Shown one piece after another: positions 28,265-33,406 of a stretch of DNA of 33,492 nucleotides (position 1 is the stretch's first letter; every line of letters begins with the position of its first letter). The notes under the pieces are model-generated. The model was not told the origin of the DNA and did not search any database. It saw only the letters and a program-made list of their open reading frames with translations. Where the stretch lies: the NCBI GenBank assembly GCA_902779875.1, contig CACZCX010000016.1:1-33492 (forward strand), read 5' to 3'. The DNA comes from an uncultured Bacteroidales bacterium (lineage in GTDB: Bacteria; Bacteroidota; Bacteroidia; Bacteroidales; Bacteroidaceae). Made by a program: the position numbers and the translations under genes.

Positions 28265-29725
28265 TTAATACTGACGGAGGTTCCACTTGCAGTTTACGTC
28301 GTTGAAATCGAACTTGCCGAGTGAAGCGTTAGAGTCACCAACAGAGATAAGGCAAACCTTATCGGTGGTTCCAGGAACAGCCTTGGGGCAGATACGATAT
28401 GTACCGTCGGTCAGCTGATCAACGCTCCAGAGCTGCTCGTCAGCGCCTGTGAACTCAGGTACAGTGGTGAGCTCCTTACCTGCAGTAGCGGCAAGAGCAC
28501 GGTTTGTACCGGCAATCACGATCTTGTAGTACGGAGTACCCAGGGCACCCTCGTTCTGAGCAACGAACTCCCACTTCTGGTTGGGACGGAACTGATAGTC
28601 GATAACGCGAACATCGATGTTACCCTTAGGCCAGTTGCCGATAACATCCTCCAGCTTCTGGAAAGGAATAGAGGTGTTAGCCTGCTGCTGTCCGCCACCG
28701 CCGAACATGCCGCCCATACCGCGACCGCCAGCCATACGAACATACTCAGTAGCAATCTCAAGGGCATAACCACGACGCTCTGACTCAATCTCGTATACAC
28801 CGTCCTTTACGTTGTAACCAGCCTCAGGCCAGCCGTTACGCCATACGATAGGCAGGATAGCCAGGGTGCTGCGACCGCTCATTGAGTAGTCAGCCTCCCA
28901 GTGGAATGACATCTTCTCAACGCCTTCCTCAACAACTACGCGGCCAAAGTGACCGGCACCGGTGTAACCGTCGCGGCAGCCGAGAACCATCTTACCGCCA
29001 CCCTCAACCATGTCGCGGCCTACGTTGTCAATGAACGGACCTGTGGGGCTCTTAGAACGACCGCAAACAATGTTATAGGTAGAGTTGATACCATCGCAGC
29101 AAGTACCGTGGGTACCGAGCAGATAGTAGTAACCGTCGTGATAGATCATTGTGGTAGCCTCGCAGTCAACGGCGATGTTTACATCCTCACCGAAGCTCTC
29201 AAGACGCTTACCGGTAGCAGGATCAAGCTCGCACACGCGGATGAAACCGAAATATGTACCGAATGTAACGAACAGACGGCCCTCGGGAGTCAGGATAAGA
29301 CCGGCATCGATAGCATCGCAGTCCTCATCGGCAACAGAGTAAGCTACAGTGTCACGAGATTCAGGAGGGAATCCGTAGTCAGGAGACTTGGGATCCAAAG
29401 TCTTACCGAACTGGGTAACGATAGCACCTGCGTGGCCGCCACCGAGTCCACCGCCTGTTGATGAGTAGGCAAGCAGATAACGGTCGCCGATCTTGATCAT
29501 ATCAGGAGCAGCACCTACGCGGGGAATGCTCTGACCGCTGGTCCATACCCAACCGTCTTCTGAAACAAGGCCTGAACCGCCTGTTCCCCATGTATAATAC
29601 TTACCGTCGCACTCCATTACTGTGGCCGGATCGTGAATGAAAGGAGAACCGATCTGAGCCATAACGGTTTCAGACATTGAGACTGAAACAAGGGCTACCA
29701 AGCCCAACTGAAATATCTTTTTCAT
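28265..29725 (-). CDS. Secreted GH43-type glycoside hydrolase with C-terminal trefoil-like domain
   Basis: 486 residues. A signal peptide (1-23, ending VMAQ) is followed by a five-bladed beta-propeller. The three expected catalytic acids are visible: D32 in FIHDPATVMECDGKYY (base), D140 in DCDAIDAGLILTPEG (pKa modulator) and E189 in VDCEATTMIYHDGYYYLLG (acid). The closest activities are arabinanase or arabinofuranosidase/xylosidase types; which one cannot be told by eye. A Gly-rich stretch (MAGGRGMGGMFGGGGQQQ, 331-348) precedes a C-terminal ricin/trefoil-like binding region (~370-486, QKWEFVAQ, EQLWSV, CKWNLRQY). It is cotranscribed with the lipoprotein 18 bp upstream and ends at a strong terminator. 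Confidence 0.88.
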   Translation of the reverse strand: MKKIFQLGLVALVSVSMSETVMAQIGSPFIHDPATVMECDGKYYTWGTGGSGLVSEDGWVWTSGQSIPRVGAAPDMIKIGDRYLLAYSSTGGGLGGGHAGAIVTQFGKTLDPKSPDYGFPPESRDTVAYSVADEDCDAIDAGLILTPEGRLFVTFGTYFGFIRVCELDPATGKRLESFGEDVNIAVDCEATTMIYHDGYYYLLGTHGTCCDGINSTYNIVCGRSKSPTGPFIDNVGRDMVEGGGKMVLGCRDGYTGAGHFGRVVVEEGVEKMSFHWEADYSMSGRSTLAILPIVWRNGWPEAGYNVKDGVYEIESERRGYALEIATEYVRMAGGRGMGGMFGGGGQQQANTSIPFQKLEDVIGNWPKGNIDVRVIDYQFRPNQKWEFVAQNEGALGTPYYKIVIAGTNRALAATAGKELTTVPEFTGADEQLWSVDQLTDGTYRICPKAVPGTTDKVCLISVGDSNASLGKFDFNDVNCKWNLRQY

Positions 29726-29743
29726 AATCTGATCCTGTTTTAA

Positions 29744-30733
29744 TTACTTGTTGGTAATAGTGATGTTCTTTACGATAGAACCATCCTCGTTGTAGAAACG
29801 CATGCACATATCGCTCATACCGGGGCCGTTGATAACAGCGGCGCGAACCAGGTTCTTACCCTTCTTGAGGGTGATACGCTTTGACATACCGTCATCGGCA
29901 ACCATACGGCGGTCAGCCTGGAGAGTCAGGACCTTCTCACCGTTAACCCACCATATAGAAGATGCGTTTGAACCGGCGGCAAGACGTACGACCATATCCT
30001 CCTCGCAGTTTACAACTGTGAAAGCGTTGAAGATAAGACCATAACGCTTCTGGCCGTTTGATGTACCTGTAGCAAAACGGATAAGCTTGATATTGAACAG
30101 CTTGCTGTCAACTGAGTGCCAAGCAAGTGTATCCTTTACAGTCTGGGGAGCAGCGGCAGCTGCGGGAGCGCCACCCATCATGCCACCAAAACCGCCGAAT
30201 CCACCCATGGGAGCACCACCCTGAGGAGCGCCCTGGGGACGAGCCTGGCCGGGAGCGCCCTGAGGAGCACCCTGAGGACGAGCAGCACCTGCACCGGGAG
30301 CACCGCCCTGAGGACGTGAAGCGCCCTGAGGAGCACCACCACCGAATCCGCCAAAGCCACCACGGCCACCGGCACGGGGAGCCTCAGACTCTACTATTAC
30401 CTCATCACCTGTAACAGGGAGTGAGTTGATGTCAGCTGTGAACTGACCCTTGAAATACTCTTTAGTAAGCTCAGTAAGAATGTAGCTGTCAGTGAAACCA
30501 CTGTTGCCACTGTTGGGCTTGTTGATAGGCTCGAGAATTGTCCAACGACGGATAAAGCCCTTCTCATCAGGTTTTGCCGGAGCGGCATCAGCCTTAATTT
30601 CAGTAAAGTACTGGTCGTAATCAACATTTCTGTTGGCTCTGCGCTGGGGGTCAATGGATGAACCGTTTGAGCCACAGCCGACCAATACGGCTGCCATTCC
30701 CACCGCCAGAATTAATTTGAAATTTCTGTTCAT
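29744..30733 (-). CDS. Lipoprotein with Gly/Pro/Gln-rich insertion and jelly-roll-like C-terminus
   Basis: 329 residues from MNRNFKLILAVG; the frame is open to an ATG at 30826, but only the inner start gives a proper lipoprotein signal (AVLVGCGSN, lipobox Cys about 20). Residues ~121-197 are an extreme low-complexity stretch with repeated RPQGAPQG, GGFGGFGG and AAAAAP. The C-terminal ~130 residues (IWWVNGEKVLTLQ, KRITLKKGKNLVRAAVING) look like a galactose-binding-like beta-sandwich, as found attached to secreted esterases and glycosidases. It is probably a surface-exposed binding or scaffold protein for the enzymes encoded around it (inference). The terminator at 30836-30873 separates it from the upstream esterase operon; the 30734-30835 spacer has no clear promoter (TACATTTT is the closest). 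Confidence 0.78.
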   Translation of the reverse strand: MNRNFKLILAVGMAAVLVGCGSNGSSIDPQRRANRNVDYDQYFTEIKADAAPAKPDEKGFIRRWTILEPINKPNSGNSGFTDSYILTELTKEYFKGQFTADINSLPVTGDEVIVESEAPRAGGRGGFGGFGGGAPQGASRPQGGAPGAGAARPQGAPQGAPGQARPQGAPQGGAPMGGFGGFGGMMGGAPAAAAAPQTVKDTLAWHSVDSKLFNIKLIRFATGTSNGQKRYGLIFNAFTVVNCEEDMVVRLAAGSNASSIWWVNGEKVLTLQADRRMVADDGMSKRITLKKGKNLVRAAVINGPGMSDMCMRFYNEDGSIVKNITITNK

Positions 30734-32116: not shown

Positions 32117-32146
32117 TTTATAAATCAGTTAAAATTAGGTAATTGA

Positions 32147-33406
32147 TCATTTAAAGCAGATCTGTACGAACTGGTACAGGCTACGACGCCATGTGTGCCA
32201 CTCGTGAGCGGTACCCTCTGAGATGTAACCGGTAGCATTGATACCGATCTTCCTGAGATTCTCAGCGGCATCCATAACGCCCATGCCACCCTCGTGGCTA
32301 CCGGCGCTCATAAAGAGAGCCTTGTTGGTCTCCTTGTAGCCCTCAGCACCCTCAATGTCCTGAACAGAGATGGTACCACCGCTGAACATACCTACATAAG
32401 CGAATACCTTAGGATTGGCAAGAGTCACTGAACGTGTGGTCATACCACCCATTGACAGACCAGCCATAGCACGATGCTCTGTATCGGCTATTACGCGGTA
32501 GTTCTTCTCAACCATAGGAATGATATCCTTGATGAGAACGTCACCAAAGGCACCACCTATCATGAATCCGCCGCCAAAACCACCGGCACGACGCTGACCA
32601 CCCTGAGGACGTGCAGCTGCGGGAGCCTGAGCCTCAGCCTCGGGACCGGCAGGACGCTGGCCGCCAAAACCGCCGAATCCGCCAAAGCCCATACCACCCT
32701 GCTGACCGGGGATCTGAGCATCGAGGCAGTCAATAACAACGATGAACGGAACAGCCTTACCCTCAGCAATCAGGTTATCCATGATCTGAGCGGTGTGGCC
32801 CTGCTCTGCCCAACCGTGCTCGTTCTCACCCATACCGTGCATCAGGTACAGAACAGGGAACTTCTTGGTGGGATTAGTATAATATTCATTGGGAAGATAG
32901 ATGTAGCAGTGACGCATAGCTTCAGTAACTGATGAGTAGTAATAGACCTCATTCATGCTACCCTGCGGAACGTTCTTAACCTGCCAGAAATCCTGATCAT
33001 CTGAAGGAATCTCTATAGCACTGCCCCAACGGCCGGCGCCATAATAGTAGAGGCTTCCCGGATCGGGTACATTGGCACCGTCTATGTTAAGTTGATAGTA
33101 GTGGAAACCTACATCAACGGGATTTGAGACACCGGTCCAAACACCGTTCTCATCCTTAACCATTGAATAGATTGTATCGCAAATATCAAGTCCTACAGAA
33201 GTAGCGGTAGGAGCTGAAATCTGAGCGCGAACCTGACGCTTTGAGTTAACCTCGGGATACTGGTGACCGGACTGATTGTTTGAAGCAGGCTTGAAATCTT
33301 CAACAAGAACTGCACTTGAAGGCACAGTAGGATTTACTCTGGCACCGAACTGTGCTGACGCTGTCAGAGAGGCGAGCGCCATAAGTGAAAGGATAATTTT
33401 CTTCAT
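32147..33406 (-). CDS. Secreted CE1-type esterase, paralogue 2
   Basis: 419 residues, the first gene of the esterase operon. The signal peptide ends LTASAQ (~19). It has the same architecture as its neighbour: N-terminal beta-sandwich (~55-135, GVWTGVSNPVDVGFHYYQLN), then an alpha/beta-hydrolase with nucleophile S318 ([14 protein letters not shown]) and histidine H401 (SEGTAHEWHTWRRSL). The low-complexity insertion at ~234-284 is longer ([34 protein letters not shown]). Conserved parts such as [15 protein letters not shown] show common descent by duplication; different N-terminal residues suggest different substrate preference. A promoter lies at 33440-33470. Confidence 0.9.
   Translation of the reverse strand: MKKIILSLMALASLTASAQFGARVNPTVPSSAVLVEDFKPASNNQSGHQYPEVNSKRQVRAQISAPTATSVGLDICDTIYSMVKDENGVWTGVSNPVDVGFHYYQLNIDGANVPDPGSLYYYGAGRWGSAIEIPSDDQDFWQVKNVPQGSMNEVYYYSSVTEAMRHCYIYLPNEYYTNPTKKFPVLYLMHGMGENEHGWAEQGHTAQIMDNLIAEGKAVPFIVVIDCLDAQIPGQQGGMGFGGFGGFGGQRPAGPEAEAQAPAAARPQGGQRRAGGFGGGFMIGGAFGDVLIKDIIPMVEKNYRVIADTEHRAMAGLSMGGMTTRSVTLANPKVFAYVGMFSGGTISVQDIEGAEGYKETNKALFMSAGSHEGGMGVMDAAENLRKIGINATGYISEGTAHEWHTWRRSLYQFVQICFK
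32613..32647. repeat. 35-nt block identical in both esterase genes (copy 2)
   Basis: The partner of 31344-31378, in the same orientation relative to its gene and at the same place within the insertion. Confidence 0.85.

Follow-up and report, generated by a model that had tools for sequence, protein, structure and literature searches.

Why should four neighbouring genes, coding for proteins of three unrelated folds, all carry the same kind of low-complexity insertion? The question is raised by a 33,492-nucleotide stretch of DNA, here called the window, from an uncultured Bacteroidales bacterium (contig CACZCX010000016.1). In it, four consecutive minus-strand genes code for two CE1 esterases (CE1a and CE1b), a lipoprotein and a GH43 enzyme (Table 1), and each of these adjacent secreted proteins contains a loop rich in Gly, Ala, Pro, Gln, Arg, Phe and Met. 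A preliminary description had listed all four open reading frames (ORFs) and quoted all four insertions, and they were found where it had placed them. The answer put forward here, tentatively, is that secreted proteins, chiefly plant-cell-wall enzymes, carry disordered loops of the sticker-and-spacer type where the surface permits them or at their ends, and that these loops may be adhesive to the wall.

The four loops of the window

The 200 loop residues of the four window proteins are made up of 33% G, 20% A, 11% P, 10% Q, 8% R, 6.5% F and 5.5% M, and the net charge per loop is +1 to +5. Both of the loops modelled with AlphaFold2 (CE1a and lipoprotein) are predicted to be disordered. The preliminary description had treated the four folds as unrelated. 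This holds for GH43, the lipoprotein and CE1, but CE1a and CE1b are paralogs (50% identical), which leaves three unrelated folds, not four. Its view that the insertions are shared by non-homologous neighbours stands insofar as one loop composition extends across them; the loops are also found in unlinked xylan-degrading enzymes, and their residues are under purifying selection (see below).

Such a run of genes is not what the rest of the genome would suggest. In 20 hit-blind stretches of 20 kb from the same genome, Gly-rich segments were found in 3 of 109 ORFs scored as secreted versus 2 of 197 scored as non-secreted, the latter two being the tail of DnaK and a GH3 enzyme with a signal peptide just below the cut-off. 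With a slightly looser filter they were present in 4 of 79 complete non-membrane secreted ORFs versus 3 of 176 others. As these segments are scarce in hit-blind ORFs, four loop genes in a row are unusual.

In both esterases the insertion lies between the strand PFIVV/PFIIV and the helix preceding the nucleophile elbow AGLSMGG, in agreement with the preliminary description. The Pfam Esterase domain scores above its cut-off in both (75.6 and 68.2 bits versus 22), and AGLSMGGM (the G-x-S-x-G elbow) and T-x-HE are invariant in alignments of 2 and 27 sequences. The Ser and His residues are presumably catalytic, as in the family, and feruloyl or acetyl-xylan esterase activity is predicted for CE1a and CE1b from family membership only. 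CE1b also matches an NCBIfam xylanase/feruloyl esterase model with an expect value (E) of 1.3e-161, although it falls short of the score that this model demands of the complete bifunctional enzyme, and its CBM48 label rests on homology to CE1a relatives. In the CE1a model (AlphaFold2, mean predicted local distance difference test score, pLDDT, of 78) the loop separates a strand at 222-227 from a helix at 285-302, with a further strand at 312-317. Between the matched parts CE1a has 59 residues where 6rzo has 18; at the same site, 48 residues of CE1a stand against 5 unmatched residues in 6ne9, and 53 against 18 in 6mou. By these structural comparisons the modelled CE1a loop is an insertion relative to the solved relatives 6rzo, 6ne9, 6mou and 6mot.

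The CE1 site lends itself to a reading in which each insertion is a substrate-specificity loop proper to its own enzyme: the CE1 insertion would extend a known flexible cleft loop and the other insertions would be separate local adaptations. A long flexible loop near the CE1 cleft is described for wtsFae1A and DmCE1B in PMC8040265. The same vocabulary in the lipoprotein, in GH10 and in the PA14 domain of GH3, as well as the gain of the loop in two separate CE1 paralog clades, would be left unexplained, and this reading is considered very improbable.

The lipoprotein matched nothing in Pfam at E 0.01 or in NCBIfam at E 0.001. Judging from the alignment, its true start is likely an internal Met, residue 32. 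The insertion is 81 amino acids long, GRGGFGGFGG...RPQGAPQGAPGQARPQG...GGFGGFGG, and the long form of the loop reads EAPRAGGRGGFGGFGG-(ARPQGAPQG)n-GGFGGFGG. A loop start of the type EAPR(A/P/Q)(G/S)GR is kept in 16/16 aligned orthologs and GRG(G)FGG in 15/16, and a Gly-rich segment of 30-114 amino acids is present in 28/29 distinct lipoprotein sequences, the 29th having its segment elsewhere. The AlphaFold2 models, built from an alignment of 16 close sequences, have a mean pLDDT of 63.9 in the best case and 43-46 in the other four. Foldseek likens the core to PA14 lectins, the only two hits with E under 0.001 being 3abz, a GH3 beta-glucosidase that contains PA14 (E 1.5e-4), and Cea1A (E 3.5e-4), with a TM-score by query length of 0.24 for the PA14-bearing match of this low-confidence model. 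Sequence profiles disagree: the Pfam PA14 profile matched none of the 16 lipoprotein members even at E up to 10. Homology to the PA14 region of two loop-bearing GH3 enzymes was also considered but not borne out, the profile comparison having aligned the Gly-rich loop alone; the lipoprotein loop is located elsewhere in the fold than the GH3 PA14 loop.

The GH43 enzyme scores 66.3 bits in Pfam versus a cut-off of 32.2, and its best match in the PDB is arabinanase-TS (1wl7, E 1.5e-30); the NCBIfam match is AbnA-like and far below the model cut-off. Its insertion, AGGRGMGGMFGGGGQQQANTS, is the only interdomain one among the four window proteins: it follows the catalytic domain (45-300) and precedes the RicinB-lectin domain (381-448).

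Table 1. Positions of the cassette genes and their loops in the window
Feature	Positions	Strand	Evidence
GH43 (endo-arabinanase-like) with C-terminal RicinB-type lectin domain, signal peptide	28265..29725	-	PF04616 E 3.7e-18, PF14200 E 1.1e-8
GH43 interdomain low-complexity insertion, residues 332-352	28670..28732	-	Gly-rich segment in 27/30 distinct GH43 sequences
Lipoprotein, predicted beta-sandwich core resembling PA14 domains	29744..30826	-	lipobox LVGC
Lipoprotein loop, residues 144-230: FG block, RPQG block, FG block	30137..30397	-	pLDDT 26-33 over most of 153-223
CE1 esterase b (N-terminal CBM48-type half and CE1 domain)	30893..32116	-	PF00756 E 6.7e-21
CE1b low-complexity insertion, residues 228-275	31292..31435	-	
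CE1b loop part near-identical in DNA to CE1a loop	31314..31378	-	63/65 aligned bases identical and one 3-base gap; first run 35 identical bases
CE1 esterase a (N-terminal CBM48-type half and CE1 domain)	32147..33406	-	PF00756 E 1.2e-18; PDB 6rzo E 7.7e-111 over 35-226 and 286-418
CE1a low-complexity insertion, residues 230-284	32555..32719	-	pLDDT ~30 over 230-281; unmatched in 6rzo, 6ne9, 6mou, 6mot
CE1a loop part near-identical in DNA to CE1b loop	32580..32647	-	DNA alignment

Loop carriers in the genome, the genus and the order

In the window's own genome the GGFGGFGG codon pattern gave 24 overlapping matches versus 3 for the reversed pattern. The matches fall in 12 ORFs: two CE1 esterases, two GH3 enzymes, GH10 and BD-FAE (these six being plant-wall enzymes), the window lipoprotein, a flavocytochrome-c-type flavoprotein, a CotH protein, a weak LTXXQ match, an aldose 1-epimerase and DnaJ. 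All except DnaJ (11/12) have a signal peptide according to a home-made rule (cut 2.4), which missed some, e.g. that of the GH3 of L025:13465-17280 at 2.31, and let in some members of cytoplasmic families (CPSase, AIRC, ketoacyl synthase, RsmF, inositol-phosphate synthase). A less strict definition of Gly-rich segments brings in CE1b, the window GH43, a tandem CE1 protein, two GH3 and another GH43, and also a DUF4412-like protein, the neighbour of the CotH gene and two secreted proteins without a Pfam match. The preliminary description had proposed a system specific to the cassette. This is weakened by the loops in GH10, GH3, BD-FAE, CotH and other proteins elsewhere in the genome, and by the sharing between the two esterases, which partly resembles DNA exchange between tandem paralogs.

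The lipoprotein, GH10, GH3 and CE1 loops use one vocabulary (GRGGFGGFGG, RPQGAPQG) at unrelated sites. The unlinked GH10 loop consists of VEQPARGGFGGFGG followed by RPQGAPQG repeats, with a second GGFGGFGG block in some genomes, and it was present in 29/29 orthologs read, out of 30 loci. Residues 122-202 of GH10 have no counterpart in 5ay7, the solved structure that matches it best, or in the GH10 paralog that adjoins the cassette in relatives; judged by alignment, the loop is an insertion relative to 5ay7. The two GH3 loops, VEEAKAGQGGRGGFGGFGG and IVESQGQGGRGGFGGFGG, are inside PA14. The CE1, GH10 and GH3 loop sites fall inside a catalytic or sugar-binding domain. The seven PQGxPQG matches of the genome include two in the lipoprotein, two in GH10, one on the contig of a loop-bearing secreted protein and one outside any loop found. 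A secreted protein with a long RPQG/MGG loop was also noted in two other places (L246:3047-4165 and L250:3342-4448, 71% identical to each other), with no Pfam family in one genome and a sub-threshold PETase-like match in the other.

By family, any Gly-rich segment was found in CE1 4/9, GH3 4/8, GH43 2/11 and GH10 1/3 of the genome's members, where the CE1 tally omits a tenth, borderline PF00756 match without a segment; a GH43 fragment (L205) has no loop. Together the four tallied families have a segment in 11/31 cases versus 2/75 other sampled secreted ORFs (p 1.5e-5). Random occurrence in unrelated cytoplasmic proteins, which the preliminary description had named as the case against its proposal, was not found in the part of the genome tested. 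Only DnaJ and DnaK, with ordinary Gly-rich regions, and single short stretches were seen; the latter are in cytoplasmic galactokinase, acetolactate-synthase-like and alanyl-tRNA-synthetase-like proteins (the last two named from sequence) and in SSB of another genome.

Among the other carriers, the flavoprotein (L033:4576-7143, contig C25) is a lipoprotein-type flavin reductase with FMN_bind and FAD_binding_2 domains and a GGFGG loop. Its best PDB match is urocanate reductase, a sub-threshold NCBIfam match is to vinyl phenol reductase, and its gene follows Rnf-like genes (two of them scanned); it could act outside the cell to reduce plant phenolic acids freed by feruloyl esterases. The CotH-domain protein and the product of the next gene (L036:5505-8043, contig C53) both have long Gly-rich segments and form a second loop-gene cluster.

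The genus is probably Candidatus Colenecus, judging from close named relatives; PMC8957277 equates this name with UBA1179 of GTDB. The GGFGGFGG pattern is present in 37/37 genus genomes, with 1 to 34 matches each and 621 in total versus 219 for the reversed pattern, which probably also fits Gly-rich repeats. In a sample of 393 genomes of the order, own genome included, 208 have at least one match, mostly 1-2, and many of the single matches may be DnaJ; the highest number outside the genus is 11, in genome G207. PQGxPQG is found in 32/37 genus genomes versus 15/196 others, among which G207 stands out with 12.

G207, a genome from a different family within the order, has its 11 GGFGGFGG matches in six proteins: GH10 and BD-FAE (both named by BLAST to the carriers of the window's genome), a tandem CE1, a glucuronoyl-esterase/acetyl-esterase fusion, GH3 and DnaJ. 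PQG stretches add AXE1, PcRGLX, GH2, a GDSL protein and several proteins without a clear family, and many of the segments are at an end. A few further ORFs of G207 passed the filter by chance, and its SSB has an ordinary tail. As an independent repeat of the finding G207 was rejected, for its carriers (GH10, BD-FAE, GH3, CE1; L244-L249, L252-L262) are orthologs of those in the window's genome and 73-81% identical to them versus only 59% for DnaJ. With the enzymes more similar than DnaJ, it is more probable that the loops were inherited from a common ancestor or transferred with their genes than that they were invented twice; perhaps loop-bearing genes moved between families of the order by transfer.

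A link with habitat was also considered and rejected. The loop is present in 50/51 animal-gut CE1 rows versus 1/28 others, with habitat assigned by keyword from record titles; the tree shows 4 changes and allows about two contrasts that are independent of each other (sign test p 0.5). The loop is also missing from the solved relatives, of which two are Bacteroides intestinalis proteins according to PMC8040265.

As to the surroundings of the cassette, there was no SusC/SusD pair among eight window proteins scanned with Pfam, and the contig stops at 33492, a short way upstream of CE1a. Relatives have a gene for a GH10 xylanase upstream of CE1a, a few kb from the lipoprotein, and this GH10 aligns without a loop; the window contig (33407-33492) stops before such a gene. 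On the other side the cassette adjoins a fimbrillin-associated (Mfa2/DUF6562) lipoprotein (27219-28139), and most of the relatives listed have a lipoprotein ORF at this position. In several relatives a small secreted protein that is Gly-rich at both ends (L040:1772-2224, also L042, L044, L045, L046, L047 and L049) is encoded upstream of the CE1 cassette, at a distance of some genes, with a sub-threshold LTXXQ match for L040; a like gene is on another contig of the window's genome (L037). The start of the window contig codes for two large secreted-looking proteins, one without a Pfam match (3-2858) and one with only sub-threshold InlB-repeat and GLUG matches (3166-5457).

Selection on the loops and their origin

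Pooled ratios of non-synonymous to synonymous divergence (dN/dS) are low in the loops of all four genes: lipoprotein 0.13 (144 pairs), CE1a 0.16 (27), CE1b 0.24 (78) and GH43 0.17 (162), versus 0.13, 0.08, 0.13 and 0.11 in the respective cores. These values come from non-independent pairs with a core proportion of synonymous differences (pS) <0.45, drawn from 29/29 lipoprotein, 16/99 CE1a, 16/34 CE1b and 30/30 GH43 sequences. Because aligners can hide replacements in repeats, loops of equal length were also compared without alignment, which gave 0.19 for 6 lipoprotein pairs, 0.03 for 4 GH10 pairs and 0.22 for 6 CE1b pairs, with the caveat that only pairs >=70% identical were kept, which itself lowers dN. 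The range of 0.03-0.24 indicates purifying selection on the loop residues.

Replacements also tend to stay within the alphabet GAPQRFM. This was the case for 755/1116 in the lipoprotein, 134/214 in CE1a, 521/840 in CE1b and 264/537 in GH43, whereas single-base changes made at random would give 27%, a figure computed for the lipoprotein alone. Without alignment the counts were 10/16 for the lipoprotein, 3/3 for GH10 and 25/46 for CE1b. Trimmed loops contain no D, E, K, T or N in 1887 lipoprotein residues; in GH10 only 4/1602 residues are outside the alphabet and none is D, E, K, T or N. The trimmed CE1b loops are less pure, with 14 D, 38 E, 24 S and 33 N in 1659 residues.

These figures bear on a second reading, tolerated compositional expansion, in which slippage and unequal exchange, in a lineage prone to them, lengthened short and variable loops and tails of the protein surface into inert spacers, and selection only removes misfolding, aggregating or cleavable residues. 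It is doubtful, if a real possibility. The CE1 site is variable in relatives: in Draconibacterium, Maribellus and Maribacter it holds shorter stretches, partly R/P/E-rich. Loop lengths vary widely, the DNA contains weak tandem arrays, CE1a and CE1b appear to have exchanged loop DNA, and in CE1a, CE1b and GH43 the loop dN/dS is as much as double the core value, all of which favours expansion. The absence of D, E, K, T and N from the lipoprotein and GH10 loops at a synonymous divergence of 0.2-0.4 is hard to square with recent slippage as the whole story. Unrelated proteins repeat the same vocabulary, positive and aromatic, and the cytoplasmic proteins seen are without it, barring chaperone and tail regions, which also speaks against expansion of this kind. 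Recent tandem slippage as the sole cause was rejected, as the arrays are weak (best score 56) and the synonymous divergence high.

In a quick CE1 tree, the loop-bearing CE1a and CE1b belong to two distinct, supported clades that both include loopless members from free-living bacteria, so the loop was most simply gained in parallel. In the window, the near-identity in DNA of the two esterase loops points to local copying from one tandem gene to the other. Such exchange is weak in other genomes and was rejected outside the window: mean within-genome similarity exceeds between-genome similarity (p 0.002-0.025), but the own-genome partner is the best match in only 1-4/14. The loops would arise by expansion of existing variable loops, possibly with copying between tandem paralogs.

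Similarity between loops of unrelated genes touches a third reading, that of the preliminary description: a scaffold-free complex in which the loops bind one another and gather the esterases, xylanase, xylosidase and lipoprotein as a condensate or patch on the cell surface. One member is lipid-anchored, and the non-homologous lipoprotein, GH10, GH3 and CE1 do share their vocabulary. Lipoprotein and CE1b loops are more similar within than between genomes at 4/5 k-mer settings (p 0.005-0.044), in a permutation that treats related genomes as independent. For lipoprotein and GH10 an excess is seen at 1/5 settings (p 0.003) and misses 0.05 at the other 4/5, and for GH10 and CE1b there is none at any of the 5. 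Loops are also present in proteins without an evident place in a complex, and mutual association is judged unlikely. Concerted evolution across unrelated genes was rejected: the signal is weak, GH10-CE1b is negative and the phylogeny is uncorrected.

A possible function and its known counterparts

The preferred reading, that of adhesive loops, can be spelled out as follows. Phe, Arg and Met would act as stickers and Gly, Pro, Gln and Ala as spacers. Weak multivalent contacts with the wall would keep each enzyme close to its substrate: Phe, Arg and Pro may contact feruloylated xylan and the phenolics of lignin, and the net positive charge may attract acidic glucuronoxylan. The loop would then be a disordered substitute for a carbohydrate-binding module (CBM), near the catalytic face, and the lipid-anchored PA14-like protein would do likewise at the cell surface. 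The order of preference is the adhesive loop first, a composition-constrained inert spacer next and mutual association after.

Glycosylation of the loops, another role suggested in the preliminary description, was rejected. They contain almost no Ser or Thr and no D-S/T-x motif. Three D-S/T-(A,I,L,V,M,T) sites, which we take to be the general O-glycoprotein motif of Bacteroidota, exist in the four proteins (GH43 125, CE1a 77 and lipoprotein 232, just past the loop), none of them in a loop. A cellulosome was ruled out too, since no dockerin or cohesin domain was found at E up to 0.01 in the four window proteins or in 17 further proteins scanned.

A number of observations weigh against wall adhesion as the role of the loops. 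The first group concerns their association with plant-wall carbohydrate-active enzymes (CAZymes). Half of the strict carriers (6/12) are not such enzymes (lipoprotein, flavin reductase, CotH, LTXXQ, aldose epimerase and DnaJ), and 20/31 tallied CAZymes are without the loop, which also counts against the scaffold-free complex. The four tallied families were picked after matches in them had been seen, and when GGFGG is required the tally, counted by eye, drops to 6/31 versus 1/77 (p 0.002). In the hit-blind sample alone, CAZyme-like proteins are 3/5 of the loop-positive versus about 6/75 of the loop-negative secreted ORFs (families listed; p 0.009), and p rises to 0.049 once one borderline ORF is dropped.

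The second group concerns the loops themselves. They are not universal within the genus: lipoprotein homologs in G001, G003, G027 and G035 (58-68% identity) match both flanks and not the loop, and the GH10 that matches best in G001 and G035 (67-70% identity) leaves no space for a loop. The reversed pattern is an imperfect control, with 12 real and 12 reversed matches in G030. Several segments are terminal, not inserted: they are N-terminal in the CE1 of L029, in BD-FAE and in L017, at both ends in the LTXXQ protein and C-terminal in one GH3. Because a composition filter picked out the segments, their purity owes something to that choice, even if the filter requires only 75% of the alphabet GAPQRFM. 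The composition could likewise be constrained by solubility or protease resistance. Finally, the published flexible loop of CE1 is only possibly the one at this insertion site.

A bolder version joins adhesion with association. In it the loops form an extracellular low-complexity code through which hemicellulases and a surface lipoprotein co-adhere to phenolic-rich walls and to each other, the genes travelling between families. This version is speculative and held to be rather unlikely; if true, it would amount to a cellulosome-like assembly without scaffoldin, dockerin or CBM, in plant-wall-digesting Bacteroidales of herbivore guts.

Bacteria of the rumen and hindgut hold their secreted enzymes on insoluble, phenol-laden fibre, and the known means are cellulosomes, CBMs and surface glycan-binding proteins. 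Lineage-wide sticky disordered loops on unrelated hemicellulases, if they are what they seem, would be a further means. They would then be of use in enzyme engineering and would show low-complexity sequence under selection in enzymes that bacteria secrete. Among the matches listed in searches of open-licence papers, by title or start of the abstract, there was no description of such loops in Bacteroidales, polysaccharide utilisation locus or rumen enzymes, and nothing on them in papers on phase separation and CAZymes.

By analogy, with no homology claimed, the GRGGFGGFGG-like motifs presumably recall eukaryotic Gly/Arg-rich (GAR) and Phe-Gly (FG) domains, and the PQG-like motifs salivary proline-rich proteins. 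The former are known for condensation and the latter for polyphenol binding; unlike both, the loops described here are bacterial, secreted and attached to enzymes. Closer counterparts are found on secreted CAZymes. Disordered C-terminal extensions of lytic polysaccharide monooxygenases, as presented in PMC8615602, are similarly widespread, but they are C-terminal, polyampholytic and Ser/Thr-rich, whereas the loops here are often internal, net positive and almost free of Ser and Thr. Interdomain linkers of cellulases (the subject of PMC3490864) are low-complexity and lie between or beside CAZyme domains, as the loops do; unlike these linkers, the CE1, GH10, GH3 and lipoprotein loops interrupt a domain. 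The nearest relatives of CE1a itself, the CBM48-CE1 feruloyl and acetyl xylan esterases (6RZO, 6NE9, 6MOU/6MOT, 7B5V), have the same two-domain core and, according to PMC8040265, a flexible loop near the cleft is described in the group. At the insertion site the solved members (6rzo, 6ne9, 6mou, 6mot) have 5-18 unmatched residues, whereas CE1a has 48-59, rich in Gly, Gln, Arg, Pro and Phe.

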